Positions 402 through 33,906 of a DNA stretch of 64,000 nt are shown one piece after another. Numbering within the stretch: the stretch's first letter is position 1; each line of letters opens with the position of its first letter. The position numbers and the translations under genes are program-made. The stretch is from NCBI RefSeq assembly GCF_003856835.1, contig NZ_CP034145.1, positions 1,488,001 to 1,552,000 on the forward strand. The letters are read 5' to 3'. The notes under the pieces are model-generated. The model did not search any database. It saw only the letters and a program-made list of their open reading frames with translations, and was not told the origin of the DNA. Origin of the DNA: Haloplanus aerogenes (lineage in GTDB: Archaea; Halobacteriota; Halobacteria; Halobacteriales; Haloferacaceae).

Positions 402-558
402 ACAACTGTGTGGTGGGTGCCCGAAGTTAAGCCTTGCAGAATCCGGCGCCCCCGCTACGCACATCCGGAACCCTTAGAAGGCGACACCACCGACTCGGAG
501 ATATGCGGCTCTTCCGGTCCGAACACTCCGTCGACCAGCCGAGACGGGAGGCCGGCCC

Positions 559-984: not shown

Positions 985-1070
985 TCGGGCGGCGACGATT
1001 CTCAGTGACGAACTGACGACAAAGAGCGGCCGCTATCGAGCGTCGGATAGAAACAAGACGGTCGTGTGGT

Positions 1071-1871: not shown

Positions 1872-2036
1872 ACTCTATGGGCCGTTAGAATCTCCCCCCT
1901 AAATAGCTACTGATAGGGACGGCAAGGAACCACACGGTGTGGCGGGGGCGGTCCGCTGGGCGCGTGTCGTCGCCACGTGAGAAAAAGCGCGGTACATAAA
2001 TAGGCGGATTTCCAAACGCCGATCAGTGATCGATTC
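1872..2036. promoter_or_regulatory. Divergent promoter region between coxB and ctaB
   Basis: An ATAAATA box lies at 1996-2002, 35-41 bases before the GTG of ctaB, so transcription would begin about 10 bases upstream of that codon. On the other strand a CTATTTAG box near 1899-1906 sits about 30 bases before the coxB ATG, consistent with a nearly leaderless coxB transcript. The spacing matches archaeal TATA promoters; no separate operator is obvious. Confidence 0.55.
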
Positions 2037-5517: not shown

Positions 5518-5518
5518 T

Positions 5519-6178: not shown

Positions 6179-6282
6179 TGTTGGTTAGGGTTCCTTGGGG
6201 CTGGTTGGTTAAAGACTGGTCGCTTTCGCCGCCGGGCACAACCCAGCGCAACCACTGAATGTCTTTGAGTGGTATAGGATGG

Positions 6283-6302
6283 TAACAAAAGTAAAGCTTA
6301 TG
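6283..6302 (+). promoter_or_regulatory. Candidate promoter of the phaR-phaP operon
   Basis: An AT-rich patch in a GC-rich setting reads TAACAAAAGTAAAGCTTATG, with purine-rich BRE-like sequence followed by a TATA-like AAGCTTAT 30-37 bases before the phaR ATG. In Haloferax mediterranei PhaR represses the phaRP promoter; an operator here is plausible, but I cannot define its bases. Confidence 0.4.
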
Positions 6303-6330
6303 CCTCTGGCCGCCCTTCGTAGGAACAAGG

Positions 6331-6645
6331 ATGACGCAAGACGAGGACGATGGATCGCCGATGTGGCCGCCGATGCCCTTCGCCCAGCAGTTTCAGAACG
6401 CGAGCGAAGACGCCGTCGAACAGCAGATGAAGCTGTTCAAACAGTTTATGTCGGGAGGCGCCGGGAGCGGATTCGACGGGTTCTCGCAACTCGGCGCGAT
6501 GAGCATGGGCACGGCGATGTTCAAGACCCGCGTGCAGAGCGGGGGCCGCATCAGTATTCCCGATGCCGAGCGCGAGACGCTCGGCATCGAGGACGGCGAC
6601 ATCGTCCAGACAATCGTCATCCCCGTCAAACGAAATTCGGAGTAA
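6331..6645 (+). CDS. phaR: PHA regulator PhaR, AbrB/SpoVT-like DNA-binding protein
   Basis: The protein is 104 aa. Its N-terminal half is a hydrophobic/amphipathic stretch (PPMPFAQQFQNASEDAVEQQ) that could bind granules. The C-terminal 40 residues are a swapped-hairpin AbrB-like DNA-binding domain with VQSGGRISIPDAERETLGI followed by EDGDIVQTIVIPVK. This is the layout of haloarchaeal PhaR, which represses phaR-phaP and is released when granules form. The phaP start lies 4 bases after the stop codon. The function is inferred from this architecture and the locus. Confidence 0.85.
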   Translation: MTQDEDDGSPMWPPMPFAQQFQNASEDAVEQQMKLFKQFMSGGAGSGFDGFSQLGAMSMGTAMFKTRVQSGGRISIPDAERETLGIEDGDIVQTIVIPVKRNSE

Positions 6646-6649
6646 ACCA

Positions 6650-7120
6650 ATGAGTGTTTCCAACCCCTTCAGTTCAGCGTTCGAGATGCAGCGTACGATG
6701 ATCGACCAGAGCCGCCGCGCCGCGGAGACCAGTATCGACGCCCAGCGTGCCGCCGTCGAGACGTGGTTCGGTTCCTTCGAGTCGGCCAAGACCGTCCAGA
6801 AGAGCGGCGTCACGCTCTCGAAAACGGCAATCGAGGCCTACCTCGACGGCCTCAAGTCCGTCTTCCCCGAGGAAGCCGTCGCGGAACTCGAAGCCGCAGT
6901 CGACGAGCAGTTCGAGGCCGTCGACGAGATTCACGAGGACGCGTGGCAGTCCTTCCTCGAGGGTCTCGACGAGGCCGAAGCGACCTACGACGAGCTGACC
7001 GAGATGCAGCTCGAACTGCTGGCCGAGAGCTTCGACGCGCTCGAAGAGCTCCAGTCCGACGCCGCCGAGACGACCGAAGAGGCCGTCGCCTCCGCCGAGG
7101 AACTGGCGGAGTCGGCCTAA
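6650..7120 (+). CDS. phaP: Phasin PhaP, PHA granule-associated protein
   Basis: The 156-aa protein is acidic and almost wholly helical, without cysteines. It starts MSVSNPFSSAFEMQRTMIDQS and continues as long amphipathic helices rich in Glu, Ala and Leu, the pattern of haloarchaeal phasin PhaP, the main surface protein of PHA granules. The ATG at 6650 is only four bases past phaR. An in-frame codon upstream lies within phaR and is rejected. Co-transcription with phaR provides autoregulated supply of phasin as granules grow. Confidence 0.85.
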   Translation: MSVSNPFSSAFEMQRTMIDQSRRAAETSIDAQRAAVETWFGSFESAKTVQKSGVTLSKTAIEAYLDGLKSVFPEEAVAELEAAVDEQFEAVDEIHEDAWQSFLEGLDEAEATYDELTEMQLELLAESFDALEELQSDAAETTEEAVASAEELAESA

Positions 7121-7159
7121 CCGGAGCGTTTTCACCCCCAACCCCCCTATTTGTATACG

Positions 7160-7702
7160 ATGACCAACGACGCCAGCGGTACGTTCGACGGACAGATGGA
7201 CGCGTTCCTGGAACGCATGACAGAGACGTATATGAACGCCCTCGACCGGAACCTCGACGCGCAGTCGGCGTTCCTCGAATCCTGGATGGACTCGATGGAG
7301 GACAACCTCTCCGAGGAGCGCATTCAGGAGGGATACGAGGGATCGATGCGCGCCTACGAGGCGTGGATGGACGCCGCCGAGACCTCCTTCGAGCGCATGG
7401 GAAGCGCGTTCCAGGGCGAGGACGTCGAGCCCGAGGAGTTCCGCGACATCTGGCTCTCCTCGGCCAACGAGGCGTTCAAGGAGATGATGACCACCACCGC
7501 GTTCGCGGCCGCGACGGGCCAGACCGTCGAGGATGCGATGGACATGCGACAGAACATCGACGAGGCGTCCGAAGAGACCCTCCACGCGCTCAACTTCGCC
7601 ACCGTCGGCGACGTGCGCGAGGTTGGTGAACGGCTCGTCGAACTCGAACGCCGCCAGCACTCCATCGAGCAGAAGCTCGACCGGATCATCGAAGAGCTAT
7701 GA
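7160..7702 (+). CDS. phaE: PHA synthase subunit PhaE (haloarchaeal class III)
   Basis: The product is 180 aa from the ATG at 7160. It is acidic and helical, with a C-terminal heptad-like segment ([19 protein letters not shown]) typical of PhaE. PhaE is the non-catalytic partner that activates PhaC and helps assemble the synthase on granules. Haloarchaeal PhaE is about half the size of bacterial PhaE, which matches. Its stop overlaps the phaC start (ATGA, 7699-7702), so translation is coupled. A short TATTTGTAT stretch just upstream (7148-7156) may hold an internal promoter. Confidence 0.9.
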
Positions 7703-9063
7703 ACCCCTTCACCTTCCCGCTGGACGCCCAGCGCAACCTCTGGGAGCGTGCGGCCGACGACGCGGCCTCCGTCGGTGCCATCCCCGACGGGCTAGAGACG
7801 ATGTCCGAGGTGGAGGTCGGCCAGACGCCGAGTGAGGTGGTCTACGAGGAGAACAAACTCGAACTCCACCACTACGAGCCGCTGGTGCCGGAAGAGGAGC
7901 GCCACGACGTGCCCATTCTGTTCGTCTACGCGCTCATCAACCGGCCGTACATCCTCGACCTCCAGTCGGATCGGAGCGTCATCCGCCGGATGCTCGAAGC
8001 CGGCTTCGACGTGTACATGATCGACTGGGGCGAACCGTCCGACCTCGACACCGCCCTGTCGCTCCACGACTACGTCAACCGCTACATCGACAACTGCGTC
8101 GACGTGGTCCGGGAGCGCTCCGGCCAGGACTCGATCAACATCATGGGCTACTGCATGGGTGGGACGATGAGCGTCATGTACGCCGCGCTCCACCCCGAGA
8201 AGGTCCGTAACCTCGGGCTGATGGCCGCCGGTCTCTGTTTCGACGGCACCGGCGGCATCCTCGAGATGTGGGGCGACGAGGAGTTCTTCAGCCCCGGTGC
8301 CATCACCGAGACGTTCGGCAACGTCCCCGCCGAGTTCCTCGACGTGGGCTTCGCGCTGATGGATCCCGTCCACAACTACGTCACGAAGTACGGCAACCTC
8401 TACGACAACATCGACGACGAGGACTTCGTGGAGAACTTCGCGCGGATGGAGCGGTGGCTCAACGACCCCATCGACGTCGCCGGCACCGCCTATCGGCAGT
8501 TCCTGGAGGACGTCTACCAGGAGAACAAGCTCTACCGGGGCGAACTCGAACTGAACGGTGAACGGGTCGACCTCGACAACATCACGATGCCGGTGATTCA
8601 GGTGATCGGCGAGTACGACCACCTCATTCCGCCGGAGGCGAGCAAGCCGTTCAACGAGGTCGTCGCCAGCGACGACACCGAGATCATGGAGTACTCGACG
8701 GGCCACATCGGCCTCTCGGTGTCGCGCTCGACCCACGAGAACCTTTGGCCTGCGGTGGCCGAGTGGTTCGCCGAACGGTCGAACAGTGAGGCCGTCGAGG
8801 TGCCTGTCGAGGACCCCGAGGACGAGAGCGAGGACGGCCCGGACGCCGCCGTCGTCGAGGATGTCGAGACGACCGAGGCGGATGTGGCGGGCACCGACCT
8901 GCAGGAACTCGACGGCATCGGCCCCGCGTACGCGTCGCGACTCGAAGCCGCCGGCATCCTCTCCGTCGAGGACCTCGCCGAGGCCGAACCGGCTGTCGTC
9001 GCGGCCGAGACGGATATCGACGAGAGTCGCATCCGCCGCTGGGCCCGCGCAGCGAACGCGTAA
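7699..9063 (+). CDS. phaC: PHA synthase catalytic subunit PhaC, class III, with C-terminal helix-hairpin-helix
   Basis: The protein (454 aa) has an alpha/beta-hydrolase fold at about 50-370. The lipase-like box GYCMGG places the nucleophile at Cys152; the other triad members are Asp307 ([12 protein letters not shown]) and His336 (STGHIGLS). This spacing matches class III synthases. It polymerises (R)-3-hydroxyacyl-CoA into PHA together with PhaE. After an acidic linker (about 365-395), the last 55 residues read [20 protein letters not shown] and onward, a helix-hairpin-helix fold seen in DNA-binding proteins. This tail is extra to the synthase core. A T-rich run at 9076-9080 may end transcription. 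Confidence 0.93.
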
Positions 9064-9229
9064 CTGCCGCGAGCACTTTTTCGGATCTCTTCGACAGTCG
9101 TGCCACCAACCCGCACATTTACAATTGTGAAATGTATATTGGTATATTATTTCATACTAGGGGTTTTCAGAATATGGGTAATATATTGGGAGAGTTTATT
9201 ACTTAGCAAGTAGACATTCTGATTGAACC
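9064..9229. promoter_or_regulatory. AT-rich intergenic region with promoter for the small wHTH gene
   Basis: The 166 bases after phaC change from GC-rich to AT-rich. A GTTTATTA box at 9194-9201 lies about 29-36 bases before the ATG at 9230, predicting a leaderless transcript. Several other TATA-like patches (near 9133-9150 and 9176-9187) could serve as additional promoter or regulator contacts. Confidence 0.5.
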
Positions 9230-9472
9230 ATGAACGCGACACAGATGATCAACAGCGCCACGGACCGATTCGACCTGCCCGACGACCTAACCGCCGCCGA
9301 CTCGAAGCTCGTTTACTTGTTCGTCGCCGTTTCGGACGGCGCGACGGTCGACGACCTGCAGGCGTCGCTGGATATCAAGAAAATCTCGCTGTTCCCCGTC
9401 CTCGATACGCTGTCCAAGCGGGGCCTGATCGAGCGCGTCGACGACGAGTACGTCGCCGCGGCGGCGTCGTAA
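9230..9472 (+). CDS. Small winged-helix DNA-binding protein (TrmB/MarR-like)
   Basis: The product is 80 aa. A helix-turn-helix is visible at about 35-65 (TVDDLQASLDIKKISLFPVLDTLSKRGLIERVDDEY), with a wing at the C-terminus; there is no effector domain. The start fits the TATA box at 9194-9201. Because it follows the PHA genes it could regulate storage metabolism, but nothing in the sequence shows a target. Similar tiny wHTH proteins are common in haloarchaea. Confidence 0.7.
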   Translation: MNATQMINSATDRFDLPDDLTAADSKLVYLFVAVSDGATVDDLQASLDIKKISLFPVLDTLSKRGLIERVDDEYVAAAAS

Positions 9473-9513
9473 GCCCGGCGCACTCGGTAATCTCCCCTCC
9501 CTCTATCTGCAGC

Positions 9514-10083
9514 CTACTCTGCCGACTCGTCTTCCTCTTCCATCGACTCCTTGAGTGATGTCAGTTCCGCGTCCACGTCGACGGCATCTTCCTCCTCGAC
9601 CTCGATCGCGACACCACTCGTGTCCGTCCGCTCGGCTCGCCCCCGATCGGCCGACGCCTCGTCGAGACGGTCGTCGATTTCGTCGGTCAACTCGCGCGCG
9701 TCGGACAGAATCGAGCCGGCAGCCGAGTCCTTGGGGAGGTCTGCGCCGGTCAACGCATCGCGCAGATCCGTCAGCGCGTCGCGGAGGGCCGCCGTCTCGG
9801 GGGCGCTCCGTGAGGTCAGCCGCTCCCGGAGGCGGTCCTCCGTCGGTCGCGGCCCGGCGAGGCGGAGCACCGCCCGGAGCAGTTCCAGCGACTGTACCGT
9901 CGCTTCGAGGAGCGCGATGACCGTCGGGAGGGTGTACTCTTCGGTAAATCGGAGGATCTCGCCGGGCGTGGGCGGGCGGCGCCGCGGCCGGACGTCGTCC
10001 TCGATAGCCGACTGTAGCTCCGTCAGCGTCTCCTCCAGGTCGGCCAGTAGGACCGCCAGTTCCTCGTCGTCTCGACTCGACAT
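9514..10083 (-). CDS. Conserved haloarchaeal protein of unknown function
   Basis: The 189-aa protein is very acidic and predicted to be largely helical: a coiled-coil-like start (ELAVLLADLEETLTELQSAI), a Pro/Arg-rich patch (RPRRRPPTPGEILRF), a helical core, and a Glu/Asp-rich C-terminal tail. There is no signal peptide or catalytic motif. It lies in a minus-strand pair with the secreted protein downstream of it in coordinates, with a 39-bp gap. I do not recognise the family beyond its haloarchaeal appearance. Confidence 0.6.
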   Translation of the reverse strand: MSSRDDEELAVLLADLEETLTELQSAIEDDVRPRRRPPTPGEILRFTEEYTLPTVIALLEATVQSLELLRAVLRLAGPRPTEDRLRERLTSRSAPETAALRDALTDLRDALTGADLPKDSAAGSILSDARELTDEIDDRLDEASADRGRAERTDTSGVAIEVEEEDAVDVDAELTSLKESMEEEDESAE

Positions 10084-10122
10084 GGCCGACAGTTGGGGCC
10101 GGACCCGGATATATCGTTGCCG

Positions 10123-11061
10123 TCAGTCGCGCCATCGAGCGACGGCCGTGAGGGCCAGCAACGCGAGCAGCGCGACGAGCGGTCCGAAGCCGGCGCCGCC
10201 GCCCTCAGTGGGCGTCGGCGTCGCGGTCGGTTCGGGCGTGTCGGGCGGGTGGGGCGTCGGCGACTCCGTTGGGGTCGCCGTCGGTGTCGGCGTGGGTGTC
10301 GCCGTCGGTGTCGGCGTGGGTGTCGCCGTCGGCGTGGGTCTCGCAGTCGGCGTTGACGTGGCTGTCGGCGTGGGCGTCGGTTCTGGCGTCGGTGTCGCCG
10401 TCGGTTCCGCCGCCCCGCCGGCCACGGTCACCGTCGTCGTCGCTCGGCCGTCCTCGATGTCGCTCCCCTCGACGACGATTCGGTAGGTGCCGGGGTCCGC
10501 ACCGCTCGTGTCGACGGTGACGCTCCCGCCGCTCTCGGTGATCCGGCTATTGCCGGCGAGGTCGACGCCGTCCGGGTTCTCGAGGGTCACGTCGAGGCGG
10601 TCGGCCTCGGCGAAGTTGTACTCCGCCGTGATCGTCACCTCCTCGAAGTCGTTCCCTTCGACGGTGTCGCCCGCGATGTCGACGCCGCGTTCGTTGCGGA
10701 CCTCGAAGTCGGTGATCCGTGGCTGGACGACGACCAGTTCCGCCTCGTCGTCGTCGTCGCTGTCGGCATCGTACGAACCGGGTGCCACGCCGTCGAAGTC
10801 GGCGTTCTCGGGGTCGACGGTGAACACCTCGTCGCCGGCGACCGAGACGAACGTCGTCTGCTCGGTGCCGATGGTCCCGCCGCCGGTGAGTCCGACGTTC
10901 GAGATGTCGAGCGATTCGCTGGCGTAGACGCGGACCGGCGGGCTGGTGTTCGAGGGAGCATCGCGGGGTTCGTCGACGGCGACGCTCGCGCCCGTCGCGG
11001 CGGCGACGACGGCGAGGGCGACAGCGAGGACCACGAGTAGTCGGTGGAGGGTGGCGGTCAT
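10123..11061 (-). CDS. Secreted surface protein with Pro/Thr stalk and PGF-CTERM-like anchor
   Basis: The protein (312 aa) has a signal peptide (1-about 26), a beta-rich extracellular domain (about 30-215) with DUF-like surface repeats, then a stalk of TPTPTA-type repeats (about 219-284). It ends in a GAGFGP motif, a hydrophobic helix (LVALLALLALTAV) and a basic end (ARWRD). This tripartite tail resembles the PGF-CTERM signal recognised by archaeosortase A, which would remove the helix and attach a lipid. The stalk is a likely O-glycosylation site. The ligand or role is unknown. Confidence 0.75.
   Translation of the reverse strand: MTATLHRLLVVLAVALAVVAAATGASVAVDEPRDAPSNTSPPVRVYASESLDISNVGLTGGGTIGTEQTTFVSVAGDEVFTVDPENADFDGVAPGSYDADSDDDDEAELVVVQPRITDFEVRNERGVDIAGDTVEGNDFEEVTITAEYNFAEADRLDVTLENPDGVDLAGNSRITESGGSVTVDTSGADPGTYRIVVEGSDIEDGRATTTVTVAGGAAEPTATPTPEPTPTPTATSTPTARPTPTATPTPTPTATPTPTPTATPTESPTPHPPDTPEPTATPTPTEGGGAGFGPLVALLALLALTAVARWRD
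10203..10406 (-). repeat. Low-complexity Thr-Pro coding repeat
   Basis: About 200 bases encode a run of Thr-Pro-Thr-Pro-Thr-Ala units in the surface protein. On the plus strand this appears as repeated GTCGGCGTGGGTGTCGCC-like units. Length variation by slippage is expected, and the region could assemble poorly. Confidence 0.8.
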
Positions 11062-11152
11062 CGCACGGTCGTACGCTTCCCCGATAATTGATGTTGTCGG
11101 GGACGGCTCGTAATGGAAACGCTCTTTTGACAGTCACACCGAGTGTGCGCGT

Positions 11153-12385
11153 ATGACCGACGGGGACGACGAGACCGACCTACCGGCCGAGACCCTCGGC
11201 ACCCGCCTCGACGACGCGGCCGAGGCGCTCGACGCCGCCGAGACCGAAGACGACCTCGACGCGGTCGAGGAGCAACTCGACGGGATTGCCGAGGATCTCG
11301 AAGCCGCCGACCTCCCGGCCCCCGACGAAGACGACGAGGACGCGGAGGATCCCGCCGCGGAACTCGAGGACCGCCTCGACTCTCTCCGCGAGGATCTGGA
11401 AGCCGCCCGCGGCCCCTACGCCTCGGACGTGATCGACGACATCGAGGACGCGAAAGCGACGCTCACCGACACCCGGTGGACCGAAGACGGTGAGGACGAG
11501 GCCGCCGCCGCCGTCGAATCCTTCGTCGCGGACGTGAACGAGACGCTCGATACCGATCTGTCGGGCGACGACGCCGACGCCCTCGACGCCGCCGCGGAGG
11601 CCGTCGCGGACGCGAACCTCGACGCCGACGCCGACGCCGAAACCATCGCCGCTCTGCTGGAGGCGACCGACGACCTCGAAAGCGGTCTGGCGGACGCCGA
11701 GGAGTGGGACGACCTCGAAACTCACGAACAACTCCGCGCACAGGGCTACTACGACGTGCTCGGCCACTACAAGGACTACCCGCCCGAGTGGGCCGCGCTC
11801 AAGGAGTGGGAACAGCGCGGCAACGTCGAGATGGTGTTGCTCGCGCTCGATAGCTTCCAGTCCGACTTCATGGAGCGCCACTGCCTCGAAGCCCTCACCC
11901 GGATGAACGACGAGGGGGCGTTCGACGCCATGCACCAGCGCGCGGGCAAGCGCGACAAGCCCGGCATCAAGGCGCTGGGGAAGATGGCCGCCGAGGACGC
12001 GGTCGAGACGCTGATCGAGTACGTCGACGCCGACTCCGACCCCGGGCTCCAGAAGGTGACGTTCAAGGCACTCGGCGAAATAGGGAGCGAGGAGGCCACC
12101 GGACCGCTCGCGAACAAACTCGTCGCCGAGAACGAGCAGATCCGCCCGTATGCCGCTCGCGCCCTCGGCCTCATCGGTGACACGCGAGCCATCGAGCCCC
12201 TCGCCGACACGCTGGCCGACGACGATCACGACGAGACGCGCGCCGCGGCCGCGTGGGCGCTCCGACAGATCGGCACCGAGCGCGCGCTCGAAGCGGCCGC
12301 CGACTTCGTCGACGACCGCGCTTATCTCGTCCAGCACGAGGCCGAGCAGGCGTCCGAGTCGCTGTCGGTCGAGCAGCCGGCGTAA
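11153..12385 (+). CDS. HEAT-repeat (PBS-lyase type) protein with acidic N-terminus
   Basis: The 410-aa protein divides in two. The first ~190 residues are extremely Asp/Glu/Ala-rich and probably helical. From about residue 195 there are HEAT/PBS-lyase-type alpha repeats, clearest as DAVETLIEYVDADSDPGLQKVTFKALGEIG, then EATGPLANKL...ARALGLIGDTRAIEPLADTL, then AAWALRQIGTERALEAAADF. HEAT repeats form scaffolds for protein binding; no lyase activity is implied. The upstream gene is divergent and the DUF2237 gene follows 42 bp downstream. Confidence 0.8.
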   Translation: MTDGDDETDLPAETLGTRLDDAAEALDAAETEDDLDAVEEQLDGIAEDLEAADLPAPDEDDEDAEDPAAELEDRLDSLREDLEAARGPYASDVIDDIEDAKATLTDTRWTEDGEDEAAAAVESFVADVNETLDTDLSGDDADALDAAAEAVADANLDADADAETIAALLEATDDLESGLADAEEWDDLETHEQLRAQGYYDVLGHYKDYPPEWAALKEWEQRGNVEMVLLALDSFQSDFMERHCLEALTRMNDEGAFDAMHQRAGKRDKPGIKALGKMAAEDAVETLIEYVDADSDPGLQKVTFKALGEIGSEEATGPLANKLVAENEQIRPYAARALGLIGDTRAIEPLADTLADDDHDETRAAAAWALRQIGTERALEAAADFVDDRAYLVQHEAEQASESLSVEQPA

Positions 12386-23968: not shown

Positions 23969-24676
23969 TTAGGTGAGACGTCGAAGCAGGAGCAGTGCGA
24001 TCAACGCCAGTGCGATGATTCCGACGAGGTAACGGGGGTCCTGCGTGAGTTCGTCCAATCTCGTGTTCCGTACCTGGTTTTCGACCGCCGGCCCATCCGA
24101 AGACGAGTCCATCGAGGCGGCTTCGTCGGATTGGTCGGTGCCGATGCTCCCGCTCTCTCCGTTACCGTCTCCGAGGACGGTCAGGCTCGTGGTTTCGGTC
24201 CCGACGGTGTAACTGTCGCCTCGCTCGTCGCCGAGCGCCGCCACCGTCAGGTCGAGACCGGTCGACCCCGTTCCGTCGGCCCTGAGCGTTACCCTGGCGA
24301 TGGTCACGGTTCCGGTGTCCGCGGTATCCATCAGCGCCGCGACCATCGTCACCGACGAGCCGTCCGCCGCACGTTCCACTCGACTGGTTCTGTCCGACGG
24401 ATTGCCCAGCAGTTCGACATCGGTGATGCTTGCTATACTCGGGTTCGTGAGCGCGACTGTGACATTGTACGCACCGACGCCGCTGTCGGCGTCGTTGACG
24501 ACGACGTCGACCGTCGTGGTTTCGGAGACGCTGACGTCGTCGGCCGACGACAACCGCACTGTCGTGGCTCCTGCCGCACCGACCGTCGCGACAGCGACGA
24601 CGAGCGTCACCAGGACGACGGCCGCGAGTCGCCGCCCGTGTACCGTCAGCAGGTCGCGAACTGTGTGTCCGTTCAT
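23969..24676 (-). CDS. Membrane-anchored cohesin-like surface protein
   Basis: The protein is 235 aa: a signal peptide (about 18-38), one cohesin-like beta-sandwich (about 40-165; VSETTTVDVVVNDADSGVGAYNVTVAL, then VARVTLRADG-type and VAALGDERGDSYTV strands), an acidic Ser-rich linker, and a C-terminal helix YLVGIIALALIALLLLRRL ending in basic residues. It has the layout of an anchoring scaffoldin: one cohesin displayed outside the cell on a membrane stem. The domain is closely similar to the two cohesin-like domains of the next gene. A CGATAC motif abuts its ATG (24677-24682). Confidence 0.7.
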   Translation of the reverse strand: MNGHTVRDLLTVHGRRLAAVVLVTLVVAVATVGAAGATTVRLSSADDVSVSETTTVDVVVNDADSGVGAYNVTVALTNPSIASITDVELLGNPSDRTSRVERAADGSSVTMVAALMDTADTGTVTIARVTLRADGTGSTGLDLTVAALGDERGDSYTVGTETTSLTVLGDGNGESGSIGTDQSDEAASMDSSSDGPAVENQVRNTRLDELTQDPRYLVGIIALALIALLLLRRLT

Positions 24677-24739
24677 GTATCGTGTGGTGGGTTCGTTCGG
24701 GGGTTCGAGCGCGAACGAGAGAGAAAGAGCGGAGCCGAC

Positions 24740-26539
24740 CTAGTTGATCAGCTCGAAGAAGAGCGCCTGGACGTCGACGATGTTGACGCTGCCGTCGTTG
24801 TTGAAGTCGAACTTGTCCGGGTTGTTCTGGATCGCGTCGTCGTTCAGGTTGGCGAACATCGCCTGCACGTCGACGATGTTGAAGTTCCCGTCACCGTTGA
24901 TGTCCTCGTACTGGGAGTCGCTATCGGGGTCGCTCACCGGGTTCACGAAGTTCCCGACGACGACTTCCGTGACGGTGAGCGACGCGCCGGTGGTGCCGGT
25001 GACGGCGTAGTTGTTGCCGTCCTCGTCACCGAGCGCGGCGACCGAGGTAGAGAGGTCGGCCGATCCGTCGTCCACTCCCTCGACAGTGATCGTCGCGACG
25101 GTCACGCTTCCGGTGTCGGCGGTGTTCATCAACGCGGCGTCGATGGTGACCGACGAGCCGTCCGGAGCGATAGTAACCTGGGAGGTCTGTTCCGCCGGGT
25201 TGCCCTGCAACTCGACGTCGGTGATCTCCGCGACGCTCGCGTCGTCCAGCGAGACCGTCGCCGTGTACGCGCCGACGCCACCGTTCGCGTCGTCGACCAC
25301 GAGGTCGAACGTGGTCGTCTGGTCGACGGTGATCTCGCTACTGCTCGGCTGGATGCTCACCGACGTCGACTTCGCGGTGACGTCGAGCGACGCCCCGCTG
25401 GTGCCGGCCACCGTGTAGCTGGTGCCCTGTTCGTTGCCGAGCGCCGAAACCGACGGCGTGAGACCGGTCGAGCCGGCGGCTCCGCCCTGCACCGTAATCG
25501 TCGCGATGGCCACGCTCCCGGTGTCGGCGGTGTTCATCAACGCGGCGTCGATGGTGACCGACGAGCCGTCCGGAGCGATGGCCACGTTCGTCGTCTGTCC
25601 GGCCGGACTTCCCTTCAGGTCGACGTCGCTGATCTGGGCGATACTCGCGTCGTCCAGCGAGACCGTCGCGGAGTACGCGCCGACGCCGCCGTTCGCGTCG
25701 TCGACCACGAGGTCGAACGTGGTCGTGCCGCCGACGAACGTCTGGCTACTCGCCGGCTGTATGCTCACCGACGTCTCCATGTCGGGCGAGGGTTCCGCCT
25801 CGGAGACGGTGACGGTCTGTGTGGCCGTCGCCGTCTCGCTGTCGTTGTCGGTGACGGTGAGTTCGACCGTGTAGGTGCCCGCGCTGTCGTAGGTGTGCGA
25901 GGGCGTGGCGCCGGTCGCGTTCGACCCGTCGCCGAAGTCCCACTCGTAGCTCGCGATCGAACCGTCGGGGTCGCTCGACGCCGAAGCGTCGAAGCTCACC
26001 GACTCGCCGGTCGTCGGATCGGACGGCGAGTAGGTGAACGACGCGCTCGGCGCCGCGTTGTCGGGCGCCGTCTGGACGGTTATCGTCGTGGTCGTGGTGT
26101 CGGTTATCTGGCCGCTCGTGTTCGGATCGATACCGGAGCCCTCGGTGGTGACCGTGTAGTCGCCGGCAGTCGCGTCGCTTGGCACCTCCACGTCGTAGGT
26201 CACCTCGTACGTGCCGTTGGTGAGCCAGATGACTTCGAGCACGTTCGCGGTTCCGGAGGTCGGGTTCGGTGCGCCCCCGTCCGCGTCGGTGATCGAGCCT
26301 TGCCAGCCCGTCGGGAGGAAGGCCTGCATCCCCTGTCCGTTGATGTCGGACCCGGAGATGGTCGTCGTAATCGTCACCGTGTCACCGGGTGCTGCCGTCG
26401 TCGTCGACGGCGAATTCGATACCGAGACGCTCTGTGCCGCGGCCGTCCCCACCGGCGCGTAGCCGAACGCCGAGAGGACGACCGTCAGCGCGACGAGCGT
26501 CACAACCGTTTGTCTGATTCTAGTCTGAGTCGTTGTCAT
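24740..26539 (-). CDS. Secreted scaffold: PKD domain, two cohesin-like domains, C-terminal dockerin
   Basis: From the ATG at 26539 (MTTTQTRIRQTVV) the protein is 599 aa. A signal peptide (to about 35) is followed by a beta-sandwich (about 36-160), a PKD domain (about 165-255; ASFTYSPSDPTTGESVSFDAS and YEWDFGDGS), two nearly identical cohesin-like domains (about 265-395 and 400-530), and a dockerin (about 540-599) with two Ca-binding repeats: DINGDGNFNIVDVQAMF and DFNNDGSVNIVDVQALF. Cohesins bind dockerins in multi-enzyme surface complexes. This protein has both, so it can both receive and dock. It has no membrane anchor of its own. An upstream in-frame ATG would add a non-secretory lead and is rejected. 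Confidence 0.72.
   Translation of the reverse strand: MTTTQTRIRQTVVTLVALTVVLSAFGYAPVGTAAAQSVSVSNSPSTTTAAPGDTVTITTTISGSDINGQGMQAFLPTGWQGSITDADGGAPNPTSGTANVLEVIWLTNGTYEVTYDVEVPSDATAGDYTVTTEGSGIDPNTSGQITDTTTTTITVQTAPDNAAPSASFTYSPSDPTTGESVSFDASASSDPDGSIASYEWDFGDGSNATGATPSHTYDSAGTYTVELTVTDNDSETATATQTVTVSEAEPSPDMETSVSIQPASSQTFVGGTTTFDLVVDDANGGVGAYSATVSLDDASIAQISDVDLKGSPAGQTTNVAIAPDGSSVTIDAALMNTADTGSVAIATITVQGGAAGSTGLTPSVSALGNEQGTSYTVAGTSGASLDVTAKSTSVSIQPSSSEITVDQTTTFDLVVDDANGGVGAYTATVSLDDASVAEITDVELQGNPAEQTSQVTIAPDGSSVTIDAALMNTADTGSVTVATITVEGVDDGSADLSTSVAALGDEDGNNYAVTGTTGASLTVTEVVVGNFVNPVSDPDSDSQYEDINGDGNFNIVDVQAMFANLNDDAIQNNPDKFDFNNDGSVNIVDVQALFFELIN
25103..25171. repeat. 69-bp repeat, copy 1 (inside the scaffold gene)
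   Basis: This 69-base stretch is repeated at 25511-25579 with a single mismatch. It encodes the same part of the two cohesin-like domains. Such DNA-level identity points to recent tandem duplication or gene conversion rather than ancient domain repetition. Confidence 0.85.
25511..25579. repeat. 69-bp repeat, copy 2 (inside the scaffold gene)
   Basis: Second copy of the repeat at 25103-25171, one mismatch (a C for a T near the 5' end). Flanking sequence is also similar but more diverged. Confidence 0.85.
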
Positions 26540-26844
26540 CGATGGTCTCTGTTGGTGTCGTGTTTCGTGTCGTTGGTCGTCTGGCTGTGCAGTCCACGTC
26601 GGAACGGTCCTCGGGTCGGTCACTCGCCCCCGCTCCCACCGAAACGACTGGCTCGTCACCGGGACGACCGGGCGTCACCGGACGAAGCCGAAGTGTATCG
26701 AACGGAACCGTATCCGGGCCGTCATCGGCCGTTCCGCGTCCCCCGACTGCGCCACTACTGGCGACGTGGGCGACCGACTGAATCGCCCGCGAACCGGCGA
26801 CGGTGGGGACTGAGGTGGTCATGGCGCTGTGCTGTGGCCGATGC
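26540..26844. promoter_or_regulatory. Intergenic region upstream of the scaffold gene, with GTATC motifs
   Basis: This 305-bp spacer holds no convincing gene. A GTATCG at 26695-26700 and a GTATCC at 26710-26715 lie 156-176 bases before the scaffold ATG, arranged as GTATCGAAC then CCGTATCCGG. The same GTATCGAAC core occurs in the larger array at 33969-34090, suggesting a common regulator. Confidence 0.4.
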
Positions 26845-29800
26845 TCAGCTACTCCCCTCCGATTCGACGATTTCGATGGCGTTGACCTGCGGATTCTCGA
26901 CCGTTCCCTGGTCGAAGGTCACCGTGATGTTCCCGTCCCCGTCGTCGGTAACGGTGAAGTTCTTCATCGTTCCCGTCTGATGGCCGACGTCGGCGACCGG
27001 GTCGTAGTTGGTCAGCACCTGCGTCCCCTCGATGGAGACGTTGAACTGCCGGTCGCCGGGGTCGCTGGTCCCAGAGAACTGGTTCCCGAGGTAGAGTCGC
27101 ACCTTGACCTCCTGACCGCTGGTCACCGAGAATTCCCAGGTAGAGTTCCCGTAGCGCTCGCAGTCGTAGACCGCGTCGGGCGTCGACGAGGGAACGTCGG
27201 CAGTCGTCGACGTGATGGAGCCGTCGCAGTAGTTACCCGAGGACGACGGCGCGACCGAGACAAGGTACGGCGAACTCGTATCCGTCACGCCGGTCCAGTC
27301 GGGACCGTCGTCGATGGCAGAGAGCGCCGTACTCTCGCCCGCGTTCACGCGGTGCAGCACCTGCGCCTCCGTCGTCGCGCTCGAATTGTAGTCGAGGACG
27401 ACCGTGTTCGAGGTTTCCCCAGTGTTCCCATCGCCGTCCTCGGCGGCGGCGACGAAGTAGTTCAGGTTCGACTCGGAGAGCGTCACCGACGTGGTTGCCT
27501 GGCCGTTCGAGTCGAGCGTGACGCTCTGGTAGCTCACCGCCTCGGCAGTGTCCGCCTCGAAGTCGTCGAGGTCGTAGCCGACGGACGGGGGTTCGCTGGC
27601 CTCGACGTGGATGAGCTGGACTGTCGCGTCCGCCGGCCCGCTGAGGGTCAGCGTCTGTGACGCCGACCCGACGGTCGCCGCCTCATGGGCGGGGAAGTCC
27701 GTCGACTGGAGGCCCACGCCGTCGACGCCGAGCGTCGGCGCGGCGGAGATAGTCGTGTCCCCGGTCGCCTGTGCGCCGCCGGCGCTCCCGTCGCCGAACA
27801 GGTCCGTCGCCTGGGTCGAGCCGTCGGCGTAGCCGAACGTGACGGCACTGCCGGAGAGTTCGAGACCGGAGACCGACCCCGCATCGCCTGTCGTGGACGC
27901 GCCCTTGATCGCCGTCGGGTCGATGTCGACCGAGAACGTGACCGTCTCGCCGGATTCGAAGTCGTCGAACTCGACGGCCATCGCGTCGTAGCCATCGGAG
28001 TCGTTCACGCCGTTGTGGGGCTGGCTGAACACGTCGCCGTCGGCCGTGCTGACGACGCCCGCGCCGTCGCCTGACTCGCTGTCGATCACGAGCCCCTTCG
28101 CCGTGGTGTCACCCGCTGTTCCCTCGGGATCGAACACCGCGTCCGGGATCAGGCTCTCGCTCAGGTCGATCGTCACCGACGAGAGCTGTTGGTCGCCGGT
28201 GTTCGTCACCTCGAAGGAGCCGCTGCCGAAGGTACTCGCGCCGAGTCCGCCGTTCTCGGTAACGGCGATCTCGGCGGATTTGGCGCCGCTACCGCCGCCA
28301 CCGTTGCCGTCGAGTTGTTCGACCTTGATGGCGCTGATCTTGGCGTTGTCGTTGACGACGCTGAAGTCGACGTTCAGCGTGCCGTCGGTCACCTCGACCG
28401 TGTAAGTCTTCTCCGTCGCGGTGGCCGGACCGACCTCGGAGAAGATGTCGTACGACGTGACGACCGTCTGGCCCTCGATCGACGCGTCGAACAGCCGGTC
28501 GTTCTCGTTGGTGCCGTCGGACGGACCGGAGGAGTCCGGCGAGTCCGCCGATGCGACACCCTGGTAGATTTCGGCGAACTGCAGGGTGACCTCGTAGGTG
28601 CCGTTGTCAACCGGGATGTCGTAGCTGAACGAACCGCCGTAGCGTTCGGTCTGGTACAGCGTGTCGTCGTCCGTGCCGGCGACCTCACCGCTGAAGCTGT
28701 AGGTGCTTCCGGTGTCGAAGTTCGTGTCGGCCTGGTAGGTGGTGCCGTCACCGGCGGTGTACTGCGATCCACCGGCGTTGGTCGCGAACACGACCGTGCC
28801 GTTCTGGTCGGGTTCGTCGACGTACACCGCGAACTCTTCGGTGGCCGTCGCCGTGCCGTCGCTGGCCGTGACCGTCACCGTGTGCGTGCCGATAGTGCCG
28901 GATCCGGGCGCGAGGCTGACGGTGCCGCTGCCGTCACCGCCGTCCGTGATCGAGACGAAGCTCGGGCCGCTAACCGAGAGGCTCAGCGCGTCGCCGTCAC
29001 CGTCGGACGCGTTCACCTCGACCGTCGTCGAGCCGCCCTCGGAGACCCCCTGGTCAGTGATGCTCTCGACCGTGGGCGCCGTGTTGTCGCCGCCGCCGCC
29101 CGCTTCGAGTTCCAGAACGACCACGTTCGAGGTGAGCCCCGCGTCCGCGTTCGGCTCGCCCTGAACCGCCGTGAAGTAGTTGAGGCCGGCGTTGTTGTCT
29201 CCGTCCGACGTGGTGTTCGTCAGCGTGACCGGGATGGTCGCCTCGCCGTTGGCGTCGAGCGTCGCCGTGTAGTACTCGACGTCCTCGGCGTCGTTGGCCT
29301 CGTAGGCCTCGATATCGTATCCCGGTTCGCCGTCACCGTCGGCGTCCGGGACGTTCGTGAGCGTCAGTTCGCCCTCCGCGCGGACGAGCGTAACCGTCTC
29401 GCCGGGCTGGCCGGTGACCGTAATGGTCTGGCTGGCCGACGTGACGGTCGCCGCGCTATGACGGGCGTCGAGGACGCCCGAATCGAGCGTGACGCCCTGA
29501 GCTCCGATGGTCGGCGCGGACGCCTCGTCCGCGGTGACGTTGGCGGTGGAGCCGCCAGCACTGCCGTCACCCATCAACTGCGTCGTCTGCGTTGTGCCGT
29601 CCTCGTAGGTAACCGTCACCGTCGAGCCGGCGAGTTCGAGCCCCGAGACGGGGCCGGCCTCCTGCGAGCCGACCGTCGCACCCTTGATGCTCGTCGGGTC
29701 GTTATCCGCCCAGAAGGTGGCCGTCTCGCCGGTGTTGAAGTCGCCGAACTCGACAGTCATCACGTCGTAGCCGTCCGAGTCGTTCACGCCGTTGTGCGGC

Positions 29801-32800
29801 TGCGAGAACGCGTCTCCCGTCCCCGGTTGAGTGAGGATGTTCGTACCGCCGTCGCTGACGATGTTGAGGCCCTCACCGGTCGGGTCGCCCGCTGTCCCCG
29901 CGGGGTCGAACACCATGTCCGGGTAGGACGCGCTACTCAGGTCGAACGACACCGCAGTGATGTTCTTCTCGTCGGTGTTCGTCACCTGATAGGAGCCCTG
30001 TCCGTAGGTCGTCGCTTCGAGCCCCGAGTCGGGCGTGATCTCGACGAGCGCCGACCCGGTTGCGCCGGTATCGCCGTCGCCAATGGTCGCGCCGGTCTGC
30101 CAGAGGTTGACGATCTGCTGGATCTTCTGGAAGTCGATGGTCTGCCCGCCCGTGTTGGGCACCTCGGTGCCGGTCTGCCACCAGTTGATGGCCGTCTGCA
30201 CTTCGGCGAATTCGATCTGCGAGTCGTTGCCGGTCTCGTCCGCCTGCGCAACGGCCTCGTTGATCGTCACGTTACCGTCGCCGGCGTCGGTGTCCTGCAC
30301 AGTCACGTTGACCGTGTCGGTGGACGTGTTCTGCCCGTCGGAGACGTCGACCTCGAACGTGTATGTCGTGTTACCGTTCACGTCCGGTGCGGTGAACGAC
30401 ACCTGCTCGGCGTCGAAGGTATCGAGGAGATCCGAGGGGGTGCCGGCCGTCTGTGTCCAGGTGTATCCGAGGTTGGCATCGTCGCCGTCCGGATCGGTGG
30501 ACCCGCTGGCGTCGAGCGTGACCGTCGTTCCCTCGTCGACCGTCTGGTCCGCGCCCGCGTCGGCAACCGGTGGCTGGTTGTCCGGCGACGTGACGTACTC
30601 GACGTTCAGGTTCGTCCACGTCGCGTCGAAGGTCGACCCCGACTGGTAGGACGTCGAGATGACGCCGATGGCGAGGCCGGTGCCGTCGGACGAGTTCAGC
30701 CAGGACGCCGGAACGGCTCCGGTGCCGACCTCGCTCAACTGTCCTCCGTCGGTGGCGTACGCGGCGGTGACCGCAACCTCGTCCTGTCCGTTGTTCGGTG
30801 CCGGGTCAGTGGTCGGGTCGACCGTTAGCTGGAGGTCCGTGTTCGTGGCCGGGCCCGTGACGTTCGAATCGTCGGGTTGCGCGATATTCTGGAAGCTCCC
30901 GCCGGTCTCCTTGGCGAACTGGGTTCCGCCGGTGCCGCCGTTCGCGGAGACGATGAGCTTCGCGTAGTTGTCCTGGTCGCCGTTACCGATGTAGATCCCC
31001 ATTCCCTGGTAGTTCGAAGGGTTCTCGGGGTAGCCGTTGACCGTCGTGGAGACCGTGAACGGCTCGTCCGGGGCGTCGACGCCGAACTGGAACGCGTACT
31101 GCTGGTCGTTGTTCACCGCGTCACCCGTCGGCACGTTCTCGACCGTCAGAACCTGCGCCGCGCCCCCGACCGTCATCTGGCCGGGGTCGTAGAGGTCCTG
31201 GTAGTCCGACCCGTTCGTCATCAGTCCCGTCCAGACCTGACTATTCGAGCCGAACAGGTTCGTCTCGGAGAACTCTCCCTGAACCGGGAGCGTCGTCGTC
31301 GTCCCGTCGTCCGGGTCGACGGCGAACGGGTCGGACGTGTCGGGCTGACCGTCGTTGTCGTCGTCCGGATCGTTGACGTTCGAGGTGCCGTCACCGTCGA
31401 AGTCGGCCGGCGTCGACGCGGCAGAACACGGGTCGGTGCCCGCGTCTATCTCGTCGGCGTTGTCGTAGCCGTCACCGTCCTCGTCCAGCGACGGGTCGTC
31501 GGCGCCGGAACACGTCTCGCCGGTGCCGCCGTCGTAGTCGTTCGGCTCGAACACCGTGATGTCGCCGCGAGCGGTCCAGACGGTCCCCGGGAAGGGCCCC
31601 TCGTCACCCTGTGCGGCGATGCCGAGCGCGCTCCCGGGCGTGAAGAAGTTGTTCTCCTGGTTCGTCACGCCCGTGCCGGTGGCGTTGAGTTCGACCCGCT
31701 CGACGTTGCTGCCGCCCTCGACGACCAGCAGGTCACCCTGCATCGCGCCGCCGAAGTTGGAGGCGGTGTACTCGTCGATGCCACCGGTCCACCCGAAGGT
31801 GTCGCCGATGGAGTTGTCCTCGGTGGGGTCCTGGTAGTCACACTCGATCGGATTCACCAGCGACGCGGGCACGGGGCTGTTCGACGAGTTGATGTCGAAG
31901 ATGACGTTCCCGTTCTCGTCGTAGATGTCCGCGCCGGTCGGGTTGGCCCGGATGGGCGCGCCGTGTCCGCCGTAGCTTCCCTGCGTCGCGATGTGGAGTT
32001 GATCGCCGGTGCCGTAGCTCCCGTCCTCGTTGGGTGCGTTGGTACACACGCCCGAGGGCCCCTCGTTGACTGGCTGGCCGCCCCAGCCGCCGTTGGGGCC
32101 GTTGTCGATGACGTAGAGCTGGTCGTCCTCGGAGAGGATGAGGTCGTAGGGGTTCCGGTAGCCCGACGAGTACACCTGCACCGGGCCGTCGGCAATCCAC
32201 TTGGCCTGGTTGATGCCGTCGTTCCCGCCGAACGGCAGGTCGTCGCCGTCCGTGGCGTCGTCGTTCTGGATCGTCGGGATGGCGTACAGGAAGTCGACGC
32301 TCGGGTAGTTGCTGTTGTAACTCTGGAGGTTCTTCTCCTGGTAGTTGTTGTCGATCTGTGCGAGGTCTATCGAGAGCGTCGCGCCCGAGAGCGCGTACTC
32401 CGGGGTGTGGCCGAAGTTATCGCCGGGGGCGCCCTTGTTGGTGTGGCCTCCTTGCGCGACGTACAACGTGTTCTCGTCGTCACTCAGGTCGAGGCCGTTC
32501 GTGGCGTGGTTCTCCTCGGAGCGCGGGAGGCCCAGCACCATCACCGTGTGGTCGACACTCGCCAGCGACCCGTCGCTGTTCCAGTCGAACGTCAACCGGG
32601 AGATAGCCCCCGAGTTCGTGTCGGTGTCGTCGTCGTCCGTCCCGACGTCGATGGTCGGGTCACTGGAGGAGACGTACACCACGGGTTGGGTGGCGGTCCC
32701 GCCGACCGTCAGCCCGGTCACTTGCCGGCTGGTTTCGCCAGCGACGTAGTTCCCGTTGTCGTCGTGGTTCGGGATATCCTTGATCGCGCCGATCTGCACC

Positions 32801-33906
32801 TGGTTGGTGACGCTGTAGGAGTTTTCGCCGTTCCGGGTGATGTTCAGCACGTAGATGTCGCCGTCCTGCTGGGCGACGTAGAGCCGGCCGTCGGGGCCGA
32901 ACTCCAGTGCCGTGAGCGAGCCCTGTCCGAAGTTCTGCAGGTCGCTCGACCCGAAGCCGACCGGGGTGTCGCTCGTACCCTCGCCGGTCAGGTCGATCGT
33001 GAGCGGCGAGTTGGCGCCGCTGTGTGTAACTTCGAGCGTGGCCGCGTGTGCCTGCGCCTCGGTCGGCGAGTACGTCACCTGCAGATCGCTCGACTCACCG
33101 GGTGCGATCGTCGTGCTCCCGGAGAAGTTGTGCGAGAACTGTCCTGAATCCGTTCCCGTGATGGCGACATCACTGACGGTGATGTCCGGGTGCGAGGTGT
33201 TGCTCGCGTTCCCGAGGTTCGTCAGCGTCACCGTCTCGGTGGCGGTGTTGCCGGTGACGACGGTGCCAAAGTCCGCGCTCGACGGGGCACCGAGAGTGTC
33301 GGGTTCGGCTGACGTCGAGACGATTTCGATGGCGTTGATCTGCGGATTCTCGGTCACGTGACCGAAGTCGATGTCGATCGTTCCGTCGCTCGTGACGGTG
33401 AACGACTCCATCGCGGCCGTGTCGTCGCCGTAGGTCTCGACGATGTCGAAGTCGTCGAGGACGGTCTGGCCTTCGATGCTGACGTCGAAGACCCTATCAC
33501 CGACGCTGTCGGTGCCACTGTATCCGTCGTAGAAGTACAGCCGCACCTCGACTTGCTGCCCGTCAGGCACGTCGAACTCGTACTGCATCTCCTCGCCGCC
33601 GCTCGGATCCCATCGCTCTGTCTCCCAGATTTGACTGGGTGTCCCGGCTGGGACCGAGCTGTGTATCGTACTCGGTTGGCCGTGGGAGGACGTCTGGTCC
33701 TCTCCGGCGACTTGGTAGTTCTGGAGCGTGTCCCACTGAGCACCGTCCACAGTGAAACTCCCGCCCGCGTTCGCGCGATACAATGGTGTCTCGGCGGCAC
33801 TCGCGACATTGGTGCCGATGGCGACCGTGCCCGCGAACACTGATGTCACCATAAACACCGAAATAAGTACCGCTGTCAGTCGATTTCGATTGTCCGGCAA
33901 GTGCAT
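26845..33906 (-). CDS. Giant secreted multidomain protein (malectin, beta-propeller, Ca-repeats, dockerin-like, cohesin-like)
   Basis: The protein is 2353 aa with a signal peptide (to about 37). In order it shows: malectin-like domain 1 (about 40-200), choice-of-anchor/HYDIN-like Ig (200-305), a beta-propeller resembling PQQ-dependent glucose/sorbosone dehydrogenases (310-795; ALEFGPDGRLYVAQQDGDIYV, SGYRNPYDLIL), thrombospondin type-3-like Ca repeats (about 805-860; DEDGDGYDNADEIDAGTDP), a lectin-like domain (870-1105), REJ/PKD (1112-1210), a dockerin-like pair (about 1228-1275), cohesin-like beta domain (1285-1470), cadherin-like Ig (1605-1700), malectin 2 (1703-1865), a second cohesin-like domain (1870-2070), and malectin 3 (2180-2350). 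There is no C-terminal anchor. A sugar-binding, possibly sugar-oxidising, extracellular role is inferred. Confidence 0.75.
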   Translation of the reverse strand: MHLPDNRNRLTAVLISVFMVTSVFAGTVAIGTNVASAAETPLYRANAGGSFTVDGAQWDTLQNYQVAGEDQTSSHGQPSTIHSSVPAGTPSQIWETERWDPSGGEEMQYEFDVPDGQQVEVRLYFYDGYSGTDSVGDRVFDVSIEGQTVLDDFDIVETYGDDTAAMESFTVTSDGTIDIDFGHVTENPQINAIEIVSTSAEPDTLGAPSSADFGTVVTGNTATETVTLTNLGNASNTSHPDITVSDVAITGTDSGQFSHNFSGSTTIAPGESSDLQVTYSPTEAQAHAATLEVTHSGANSPLTIDLTGEGTSDTPVGFGSSDLQNFGQGSLTALEFGPDGRLYVAQQDGDIYVLNITRNGENSYSVTNQVQIGAIKDIPNHDDNGNYVAGETSRQVTGLTVGGTATQPVVYVSSSDPTIDVGTDDDDTDTNSGAISRLTFDWNSDGSLASVDHTVMVLGLPRSEENHATNGLDLSDDENTLYVAQGGHTNKGAPGDNFGHTPEYALSGATLSIDLAQIDNNYQEKNLQSYNSNYPSVDFLYAIPTIQNDDATDGDDLPFGGNDGINQAKWIADGPVQVYSSGYRNPYDLILSEDDQLYVIDNGPNGGWGGQPVNEGPSGVCTNAPNEDGSYGTGDQLHIATQGSYGGHGAPIRANPTGADIYDENGNVIFDINSSNSPVPASLVNPIECDYQDPTEDNSIGDTFGWTGGIDEYTASNFGGAMQGDLLVVEGGSNVERVELNATGTGVTNQENNFFTPGSALGIAAQGDEGPFPGTVWTARGDITVFEPNDYDGGTGETCSGADDPSLDEDGDGYDNADEIDAGTDPCSAASTPADFDGDGTSNVNDPDDDNDGQPDTSDPFAVDPDDGTTTTLPVQGEFSETNLFGSNSQVWTGLMTNGSDYQDLYDPGQMTVGGAAQVLTVENVPTGDAVNNDQQYAFQFGVDAPDEPFTVSTTVNGYPENPSNYQGMGIYIGNGDQDNYAKLIVSANGGTGGTQFAKETGGSFQNIAQPDDSNVTGPATNTDLQLTVDPTTDPAPNNGQDEVAVTAAYATDGGQLSEVGTGAVPASWLNSSDGTGLAIGVISTSYQSGSTFDATWTNLNVEYVTSPDNQPPVADAGADQTVDEGTTVTLDASGSTDPDGDDANLGYTWTQTAGTPSDLLDTFDAEQVSFTAPDVNGNTTYTFEVDVSDGQNTSTDTVNVTVQDTDAGDGNVTINEAVAQADETGNDSQIEFAEVQTAINWWQTGTEVPNTGGQTIDFQKIQQIVNLWQTGATIGDGDTGATGSALVEITPDSGLEATTYGQGSYQVTNTDEKNITAVSFDLSSASYPDMVFDPAGTAGDPTGEGLNIVSDGGTNILTQPGTGDAFSQPHNGVNDSDGYDVMTVEFGDFNTGETATFWADNDPTSIKGATVGSQEAGPVSGLELAGSTVTVTYEDGTTQTTQLMGDGSAGGSTANVTADEASAPTIGAQGVTLDSGVLDARHSAATVTSASQTITVTGQPGETVTLVRAEGELTLTNVPDADGDGEPGYDIEAYEANDAEDVEYYTATLDANGEATIPVTLTNTTSDGDNNAGLNYFTAVQGEPNADAGLTSNVVVLELEAGGGGDNTAPTVESITDQGVSEGGSTTVEVNASDGDGDALSLSVSGPSFVSITDGGDGSGTVSLAPGSGTIGTHTVTVTASDGTATATEEFAVYVDEPDQNGTVVFATNAGGSQYTAGDGTTYQADTNFDTGSTYSFSGEVAGTDDDTLYQTERYGGSFSYDIPVDNGTYEVTLQFAEIYQGVASADSPDSSGPSDGTNENDRLFDASIEGQTVVTSYDIFSEVGPATATEKTYTVEVTDGTLNVDFSVVNDNAKISAIKVEQLDGNGGGGSGAKSAEIAVTENGGLGASTFGSGSFEVTNTGDQQLSSVTIDLSESLIPDAVFDPEGTAGDTTAKGLVIDSESGDGAGVVSTADGDVFSQPHNGVNDSDGYDAMAVEFDDFESGETVTFSVDIDPTAIKGASTTGDAGSVSGLELSGSAVTFGYADGSTQATDLFGDGSAGGAQATGDTTISAAPTLGVDGVGLQSTDFPAHEAATVGSASQTLTLSGPADATVQLIHVEASEPPSVGYDLDDFEADTAEAVSYQSVTLDSNGQATTSVTLSESNLNYFVAAAEDGDGNTGETSNTVVLDYNSSATTEAQVLHRVNAGESTALSAIDDGPDWTGVTDTSSPYLVSVAPSSSGNYCDGSITSTTADVPSSTPDAVYDCERYGNSTWEFSVTSGQEVKVRLYLGNQFSGTSDPGDRQFNVSIEGTQVLTNYDPVADVGHQTGTMKNFTVTDDGDGNITVTFDQGTVENPQVNAIEIVESEGSS

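Follow-up and report, generated by a model that had tools for sequence, protein, structure and literature searches.

Three adjacent genes of the halophilic archaeon Haloplanus aerogenes probably encode a non-cellulosomal cohesin-dockerin system that displays a large protein on the cell surface. The genes lie on the minus strand of contig NZ_CP034145.1, in a window of 64,000 nucleotides (the whole stretch analysed here, positions 1,488,001 to 1,552,000 of the contig; coordinates below count from its first letter), and they encode a membrane-anchored protein with a single cohesin (P0001, the anchor), a secreted protein with two cohesins and a dockerin (P0002, the adaptor), and a giant secreted protein with malectin domains and a putative propeller (P0003, the client). 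In the mechanism we favour, P0001 would be fixed in the membrane via its C-terminal helix and expose its one cohesin, and P0002 would plug into this cohesin through its Ca-loaded two-repeat dockerin and offer two further cohesins. The anchorless P0003 would then be held at the surface, most likely by a duplicated helical module, here called dl, that docks onto the adaptor cohesins. The likely function of the system would be surface retention of a large protein that binds glycans and possibly oxidises sugars. Every physical contact in this chain, the docking of the client and the activity of the client are what we infer.

Results

A conserved operon of anchor, adaptor and client

The three minus-strand neighbours have the coordinates and sizes given by the original prediction, which had been made from the DNA letters and their translations (Table 1). 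Genes 3 and 2 are separated by 305 bp, and genes 2 and 1 by 63 bp; the length of P0002 is counted from an ATG, and an alternative GTG start at 26659 gives 639 aa. The signal peptides, anchor and domains proposed at that time were recovered as well. P0001 starts with a signal-like helix, continues with one cohesin-like domain (aa 38-167) and ends in a membrane helix with a mean Kyte-Doolittle hydropathy of 2.28. P0002 has a signal peptide and then, in order, one PKD domain, a pair of cohesin-like domains and a Dockerin_1 domain. P0003 contains three malectin domains, an ASH/choice-of-anchor D region, a glucose/sorbosone-dehydrogenase (GSDH)-like propeller, a PKD domain and a duplicated candidate docking module. 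All three proteins are acidic, as is expected of exported haloarchaeal proteins.

The operon is conserved. Anchor, adaptor and malectin/propeller client recur together in about 17 further operons of families f1, f4 and f17, and the same order of client, adaptor (one or two cohesins, then a dockerin) and cohesin-only gene is found in a genome of the same genus (G367) and in G314, G216, G269, G281, G352, G017, G124 and others. Other haloarchaea have a lone gene for a cohesin protein with a transmembrane (TM) helix beside a gene for a giant protein with an N-terminal dockerin (L062-L064, L070, L071, L073, L085, L090, L095, L096), and the pair of a cohesin-dockerin gene and a cohesin gene is present also in non-haloarchaeal members of the phylum. 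Across the order, dockerins occur in 112 of 134 cohesin-positive genomes versus 58 of 258 other genomes, an odds ratio of 17.6 that takes no account of relatedness. At the level of loci, a dockerin was found within 20 kb in 51 of 60 cohesin-centred loci of other haloarchaea, which were picked by cohesin score, and the two domains were spread over two or more open reading frames (ORFs). Most genomes with such a locus have about 1-10 dockerins per 3-4 Mb.

The division of labour in anchoring is also conserved. In operons with a dl-bearing client, a membrane helix is present in the cohesin-only protein alone and in neither partner, with one exception (L046). Several orthologous anchors (L039, L067, L078) have a PGF-CTERM-like tail in place of the plain helix. 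Another genome (G324) encodes a cohesin anchor with an LPxTG-like end, ...SGLPITGIAAGGGLVALLAVAALARRL (L086, 9718-10614, plus strand), unlike the PGF-CTERM or plain helices elsewhere. With the anchor alone as the query, neither a phmmer search of the PDB nor a scan of the genome contigs gave a match.

Fold and family evidence for cohesins

In calling these domains cohesins the original prediction went beyond the standard model, for Pfam Cohesin (PF00963) matches none of the three window domains. PF00963 was treated as a detection tool and not as the definition of the cohesin fold, and since it misses all three domains, the family was assembled from 60 fetched loci and a survey of 392 genomes across the order, 134 of them positive. 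The resulting 68-row alignment is too diverse for pattern scans. As a profile against the PDB (E up to 10), it gave six matches, five of which are cohesins: the top match is the Clostridium perfringens NagJ cohesin, covering nearly the whole domain at E 0.05, followed by cohesins of R. flavefaciens scaffoldins. Pfam Cohesin itself weakly matches 4 of the 68 members, the best at 1.5e-4.

Structure prediction points in the same direction. An AlphaFold2 (AF2) model of the P0002 region spanning both cohesins (COH) and the dockerin (DOC), built on an alignment of window and related-locus sequences only, has a mean pLDDT of 87. Its first Foldseek match is the type II cohesin dyad of Acetivibrio cellulolyticus ScaA (E 4.6e-12); many single cohesins come next, with a target TM of 0.71-0.74 over about 145 residues, which fits the nine-stranded jelly-roll cohesin fold. 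About half of the top 50 matches are cohesin structures, including Archaeoglobus fulgidus 2xdh at 20% identity. Although no pairwise sequence match reaches significance, predicted fold and family profile provide good evidence that the window domains are cohesins, and bear out the earlier call. Unrelated Ig folds, the outcome that the original prediction itself had named as fatal to it, are not what structure prediction found.

A canonical adaptor dockerin that covaries with the anchor cohesin

Judged by its sequence, the dockerin of P0002 is canonical, and the description of it as a classic two-repeat dockerin was correct. It scores above the Pfam cut-off for PF00404 and consists of a duplicated F-hand with all Ca ligands (positions 1, 3, 5, 9 and 12) in both loops, and the AF2 model has dockerin-like helices in this region. 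Its two repeats are identical at 13 of 20 residues; internal repeat symmetry of this kind is typical of type I dockerins.

In ten operons with dl-bearing clients, the distances of the anchor cohesin and the adaptor dockerin covary when propeller distance is allowed for (partial r 0.52, permutation p 0.001). This covariation fits an adaptor that plugs into the anchor, and supports the predicted docking between the two. The strongest covariation is that of the adaptor cohesin with the adaptor dockerin (r 0.69), both of which are in one protein.

The client and its candidate docking module

The carbohydrate-binding and sugar-dehydrogenase-like character proposed for P0003 was retained in part at sub-threshold strength. 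Three malectin matches were obtained, and the similarity of the propeller to PF07995 is weak (E 1e-4, 22.1 bits, below the cut-off of 25). PF07995 also weakly matches all six orthologous propellers, the best at E 6.5e-6. A search of the PDB with the propeller profile gave no relative at E < 0.05, and a Pfam scan of P0003 found no hydrolase domain.

A dockerin-like pair had also been claimed for P0003. The internal duplication is real: it lies at aa 1213-1278, and its score was reached by 0 of 1000 shuffles. The tests of the repeat pair for dockerin homology failed; repeat 1 compared with a dockerin repeat gave p 0.013-0.11, and repeat 2 gave no similarity. A DGD-rich stretch at aa 808-868 was considered as the dockerin pair and dropped as TSP3-like.

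Whatever its ancestry, dl occupies the place of a dockerin in both protein and genome context. Each of 18 orthologous clients has one docking candidate, namely dl in 11 and a canonical C-terminal dockerin in seven, with none having both or neither. Well-supported branches of the propeller tree force at least three switches between dl and dockerin. In one locus (L042), dl stands right after a cohesin, where adaptors carry their dockerin, and cohesins are present in 18 of the 19 genomes in which dl is strong. That dl works like a dockerin seems to us somewhat the likelier alternative.

ORFs of about 336 aa in G158, G263, G269:C3, G124:C9 and G212 encode a dl-like module that scores more weakly (E 1e-11 to 1e-16) and apparently lies away from cohesin loci.

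Table 1. Features of the three-gene operon, in window coordinates
Feature	Position	Strand	Basis or remark
Gene 1 (P0001, 235 aa)	23969..24676	-	membrane-anchored single-cohesin protein (anchor); ORF call
C-terminal transmembrane anchor (DPRYLVGIIALALIALLLLRRLT)	23978..24040	-	sequence
Cohesin domain of anchor	24176..24565	-	family profile; alignment
Gene 2 (P0002, 599 aa)	24740..26539	-	secreted adaptor, PKD-cohesin-cohesin-dockerin; no membrane helix
Canonical type I dockerin (aa 535-595)	24755..24937	-	PF00404 E 1e-7; F-hand repeats DINGDGNFNIVD / DFNNDGSVNIVD
Adaptor cohesin 2, beside dockerin	24971..25366	-	family profile; AF2 model, fold search
Adaptor cohesin 1	25379..25774	-	family profile; AF2 pLDDT about 90
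PKD domain of adaptor (aa 161-245)	25805..26059	-	PF18911 E 7.7e-26
Gene 3 (P0003, 2353 aa)	26845..33906	-	giant secreted client; no membrane helix
Malectin domain 3	26869..27282	-	domain scan
Malectin domain 2	28327..28794	-	PF11721
dl module (aa 1213-1278), candidate docking module	30073..30270	-	duplicated helix repeat NDSQIEFAEVQTAINWW / GGQTIDFQKIQQIVNLW
PKD (K319L-like) domain	30298..30558	-	PF22352 E 3.7e-15
DGD-rich TSP3-like calcium stretch (aa 808-868), not dockerin	31303..31485	-	sequence
Glucose/sorbosone-dehydrogenase-like beta-propeller (aa 318-800)	31507..32955	-	PF07995, below cut-off
Malectin domain 1	33322..33801	-	domain scan

Discussion

Does the chain include the client?

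The proposed display system can build on computational observations: how the genes are arranged, their conservation across families, a cohesin fold, a canonical dockerin, and an anchor cohesin that covaries with the adaptor dockerin. Several other results count against it. The dl module has no Pfam match; its profile-profile comparison with dockerin gives P 0.088, and its hhalign score of 12.2 compares with shuffles reaching up to 11.9. AF2 models dl as two helices at pLDDT 60, for which a fold search returned no meaningful match, and there is no covariation in distance between dl and either cohesin (partial r -0.08 and -0.21). Furthermore, the cohesin-only protein has no membrane helix in several orthologous operons, and to these points the silence of PF00963 and the neglect of relatedness in the co-occurrence counts have to be added.

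The results on dl suit a chain of anchor and adaptor only, in which the adaptor dockerin would bind the anchor as well as the cohesins of other adaptors to form a branched COH-COH-DOC surface chain, while the client would be co-regulated and undocked. Such a chain would make sense of a genome whose sole Dockerin_1 is the adaptor's own, versus three cohesins, and of the fact that covariation is strongest between adaptor cohesin and dockerin, though within one protein. It is harder to reconcile with orthologous clients that always carry a docking candidate, with the repeated exchange of dl and true dockerin, and with the dl of L042 in the adaptor-dockerin position, and we consider it unlikely, if worth keeping in sight.

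The absence of PF00963 matches from the window bears on a different explanation, in which the domains would be generic Ig-like adhesin domains, the 'dockerin' a Ca-binding stabiliser, and the whole a glycan-binding surface layer that involves no cohesin-dockerin docking. Integrin Ig domains and other sandwiches are indeed among the Foldseek matches, and Big_2 matches 6 of the 68 family members. Yet the best fold and profile matches are cohesins, their co-occurrence and adjacency with dockerins are strong, and the anchor cohesin covaries with the dockerin, which leaves this explanation improbable.

A true cellulosome-like machine that concentrates several polysaccharide-degrading enzymes in H. 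aerogenes is very improbable when the genome has a single dockerin and a single dl and no hydrolase domain was found in the client, even if anchor, adaptor and carbohydrate-binding client are all present and relatives elsewhere have many dockerin enzymes.

A proposed surface display chain at a possibly chromosomal site

The whole genome contains one Dockerin_1, one dl and the three cohesins of the operon; the search for further dockerin proteins, proposed along with the original prediction, returned only that of P0002. Because the genome has one dockerin only, a multi-enzyme cellulosome is not what the genes encode. From the analogy to a cellulosome, a cell-anchored cohesin and a cohesin-bearing adaptor stand. 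The remainder of the analogy is lost, with one dockerin, three cohesins and a single client that is possibly an oxidoreductase. 'Surface display chain' describes the system better than 'cellulosome'.

The placement of these genes on an integrated archaeal element is not supported either. The GC content of the operon (0.658) is like that of its host surroundings, neither an integrase nor a PHROG element gene turned up in the ORFs examined at 22-23 kb and at 34-42 kb, and an IMG/VR scan with the adaptor returned no relatives, so that the adaptor has no viral link. An element boundary at the tRNA-Thr gene was considered and rejected, as no att repeat of this tRNA was found. In the window, tRNA-Thr and trm5 lie at 42.5-43.7 kb; in G314, which belongs to another genus, the operon directly abuts them. 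The operon may therefore occupy a chromosomal site, with the intervening stretch at 34.2-42.5 kb as a possible insertion. Between positions 34200 and 42540 the window has a low GC content (0.586), and this stretch has no equivalent in G314.

Comparison with known systems

Non-cellulosomal cohesin and dockerin modules of archaea (A. fulgidus, methanogens and ANME) have been reviewed, including ANME proteins that combine a dockerin with several cohesins (PMC9012536). The haloarchaeal system resembles them in placing cohesin and dockerin in archaeal surface proteins, and A. fulgidus 2xdh is a fold match. Its distinguishing features are an operon of constant make-up (TM-anchored cohesin, adaptor, giant malectin/propeller client), a cohesin family mostly missed by PF00963, and dl, a second docking candidate that had gone unrecognised. 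With a bacterial cellulosome such as that of A. cellulolyticus ScaA, whose dyad is the top fold match, it shares a cell-bound cohesin, an adaptor with dockerin and cohesins, and a cargo. Here, in contrast, there is one dockerin in the genome, a two-cohesin adaptor and no hydrolase cargo found, and anchoring is by a C-terminal membrane helix and not by SLH or sortase.

C. perfringens NagJ (GH84), the best near-full-length PDB profile match, is an example of non-cellulosomal cohesins in glycan-active proteins, but its cohesin is part of the enzyme, whereas those described here are on a separate anchor and adaptor. For the client, the likeness to PQQ-dependent glucose/sorbosone dehydrogenases (PF07995) consists of a short motif match around YRNPYDL...DNGPNGG, besides the weak matches of the six orthologues; unlike those propellers, P0003 stays below the Pfam cut-off and has neither a full-length match nor a close enough PDB relative.

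Implications for haloarchaeal surfaces

No haloarchaeal cohesin system is described in the open-access literature that was searched. A broader view would be a Halobacteriota-wide surface assembly, with a Pfam-missed cohesin family, an ancient two-gene core of anchor and adaptor and a dl interchangeable with dockerin, that scales up to cellulosome-like or proteolytic scaffolds; we hold the chances of this to be evenly balanced. Dockerins of haloarchaeal polysaccharide enzymes have been described as substrate-binding modules (PMC10963439, PMC13260240). Neighbouring cohesins would give them their usual meaning, docking, which is directly testable in culturable organisms. In addition, a salt-stable cohesin-dockerin pair, if true, would be useful for protein display in Haloferax.

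The multi-cohesin proteins of related haloarchaea touch on the statement, cited in PMC9012536, that large scaffoldins are lacking in archaea. In G264, a 2087-aa scaffoldin with a membrane tail carries 14 Pfam cohesins (E 1.4e-83; L103, G264:C1:76001-96000, 5161-11424, minus strand), and its neighbours include at least six S8 subtilases that bear dockerins, several of them with cohesins of their own. The same genome has a three-cohesin TM protein, and from its sequences the cluster (L103 and L104, the latter at 5619-7490, minus strand) is a candidate for a proteolytic 'cellulosome' in an archaeon.

A second candidate, in this case for an archaeal cellulosome and likewise at the level of gene content, is G003, whose single contig of 2,723,120 bp (G003:C1; loci L107, L108 and L123-L132) has 64 Dockerin_1 and 16 cohesin-family matches. 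Among ten of its proteins that were scanned, the dockerin carriers include cellulases: sub-threshold dockerin matches were found in GH9-CBM3, GH5 and GH43 proteins, and the dockerin of a GH3 protein was detected by a custom profile only; cohesin-TM proteins are present as well. For comparison, the paper on Halococcoides cellulosivorans HArcel1 names the cellulosome among four bacterial models and nowhere uses the word 'dockerin' (PMC10267330). Further clusters include one in which a protein with seven cohesins and a PGF-CTERM-like membrane tail lies among dockerin proteins (L106, G087:C1:485001-500000, 3-3341, plus strand), and one with many dockerin proteins gathered around a three-cohesin and a one-cohesin protein (L135, G353:C3:157001-177000).

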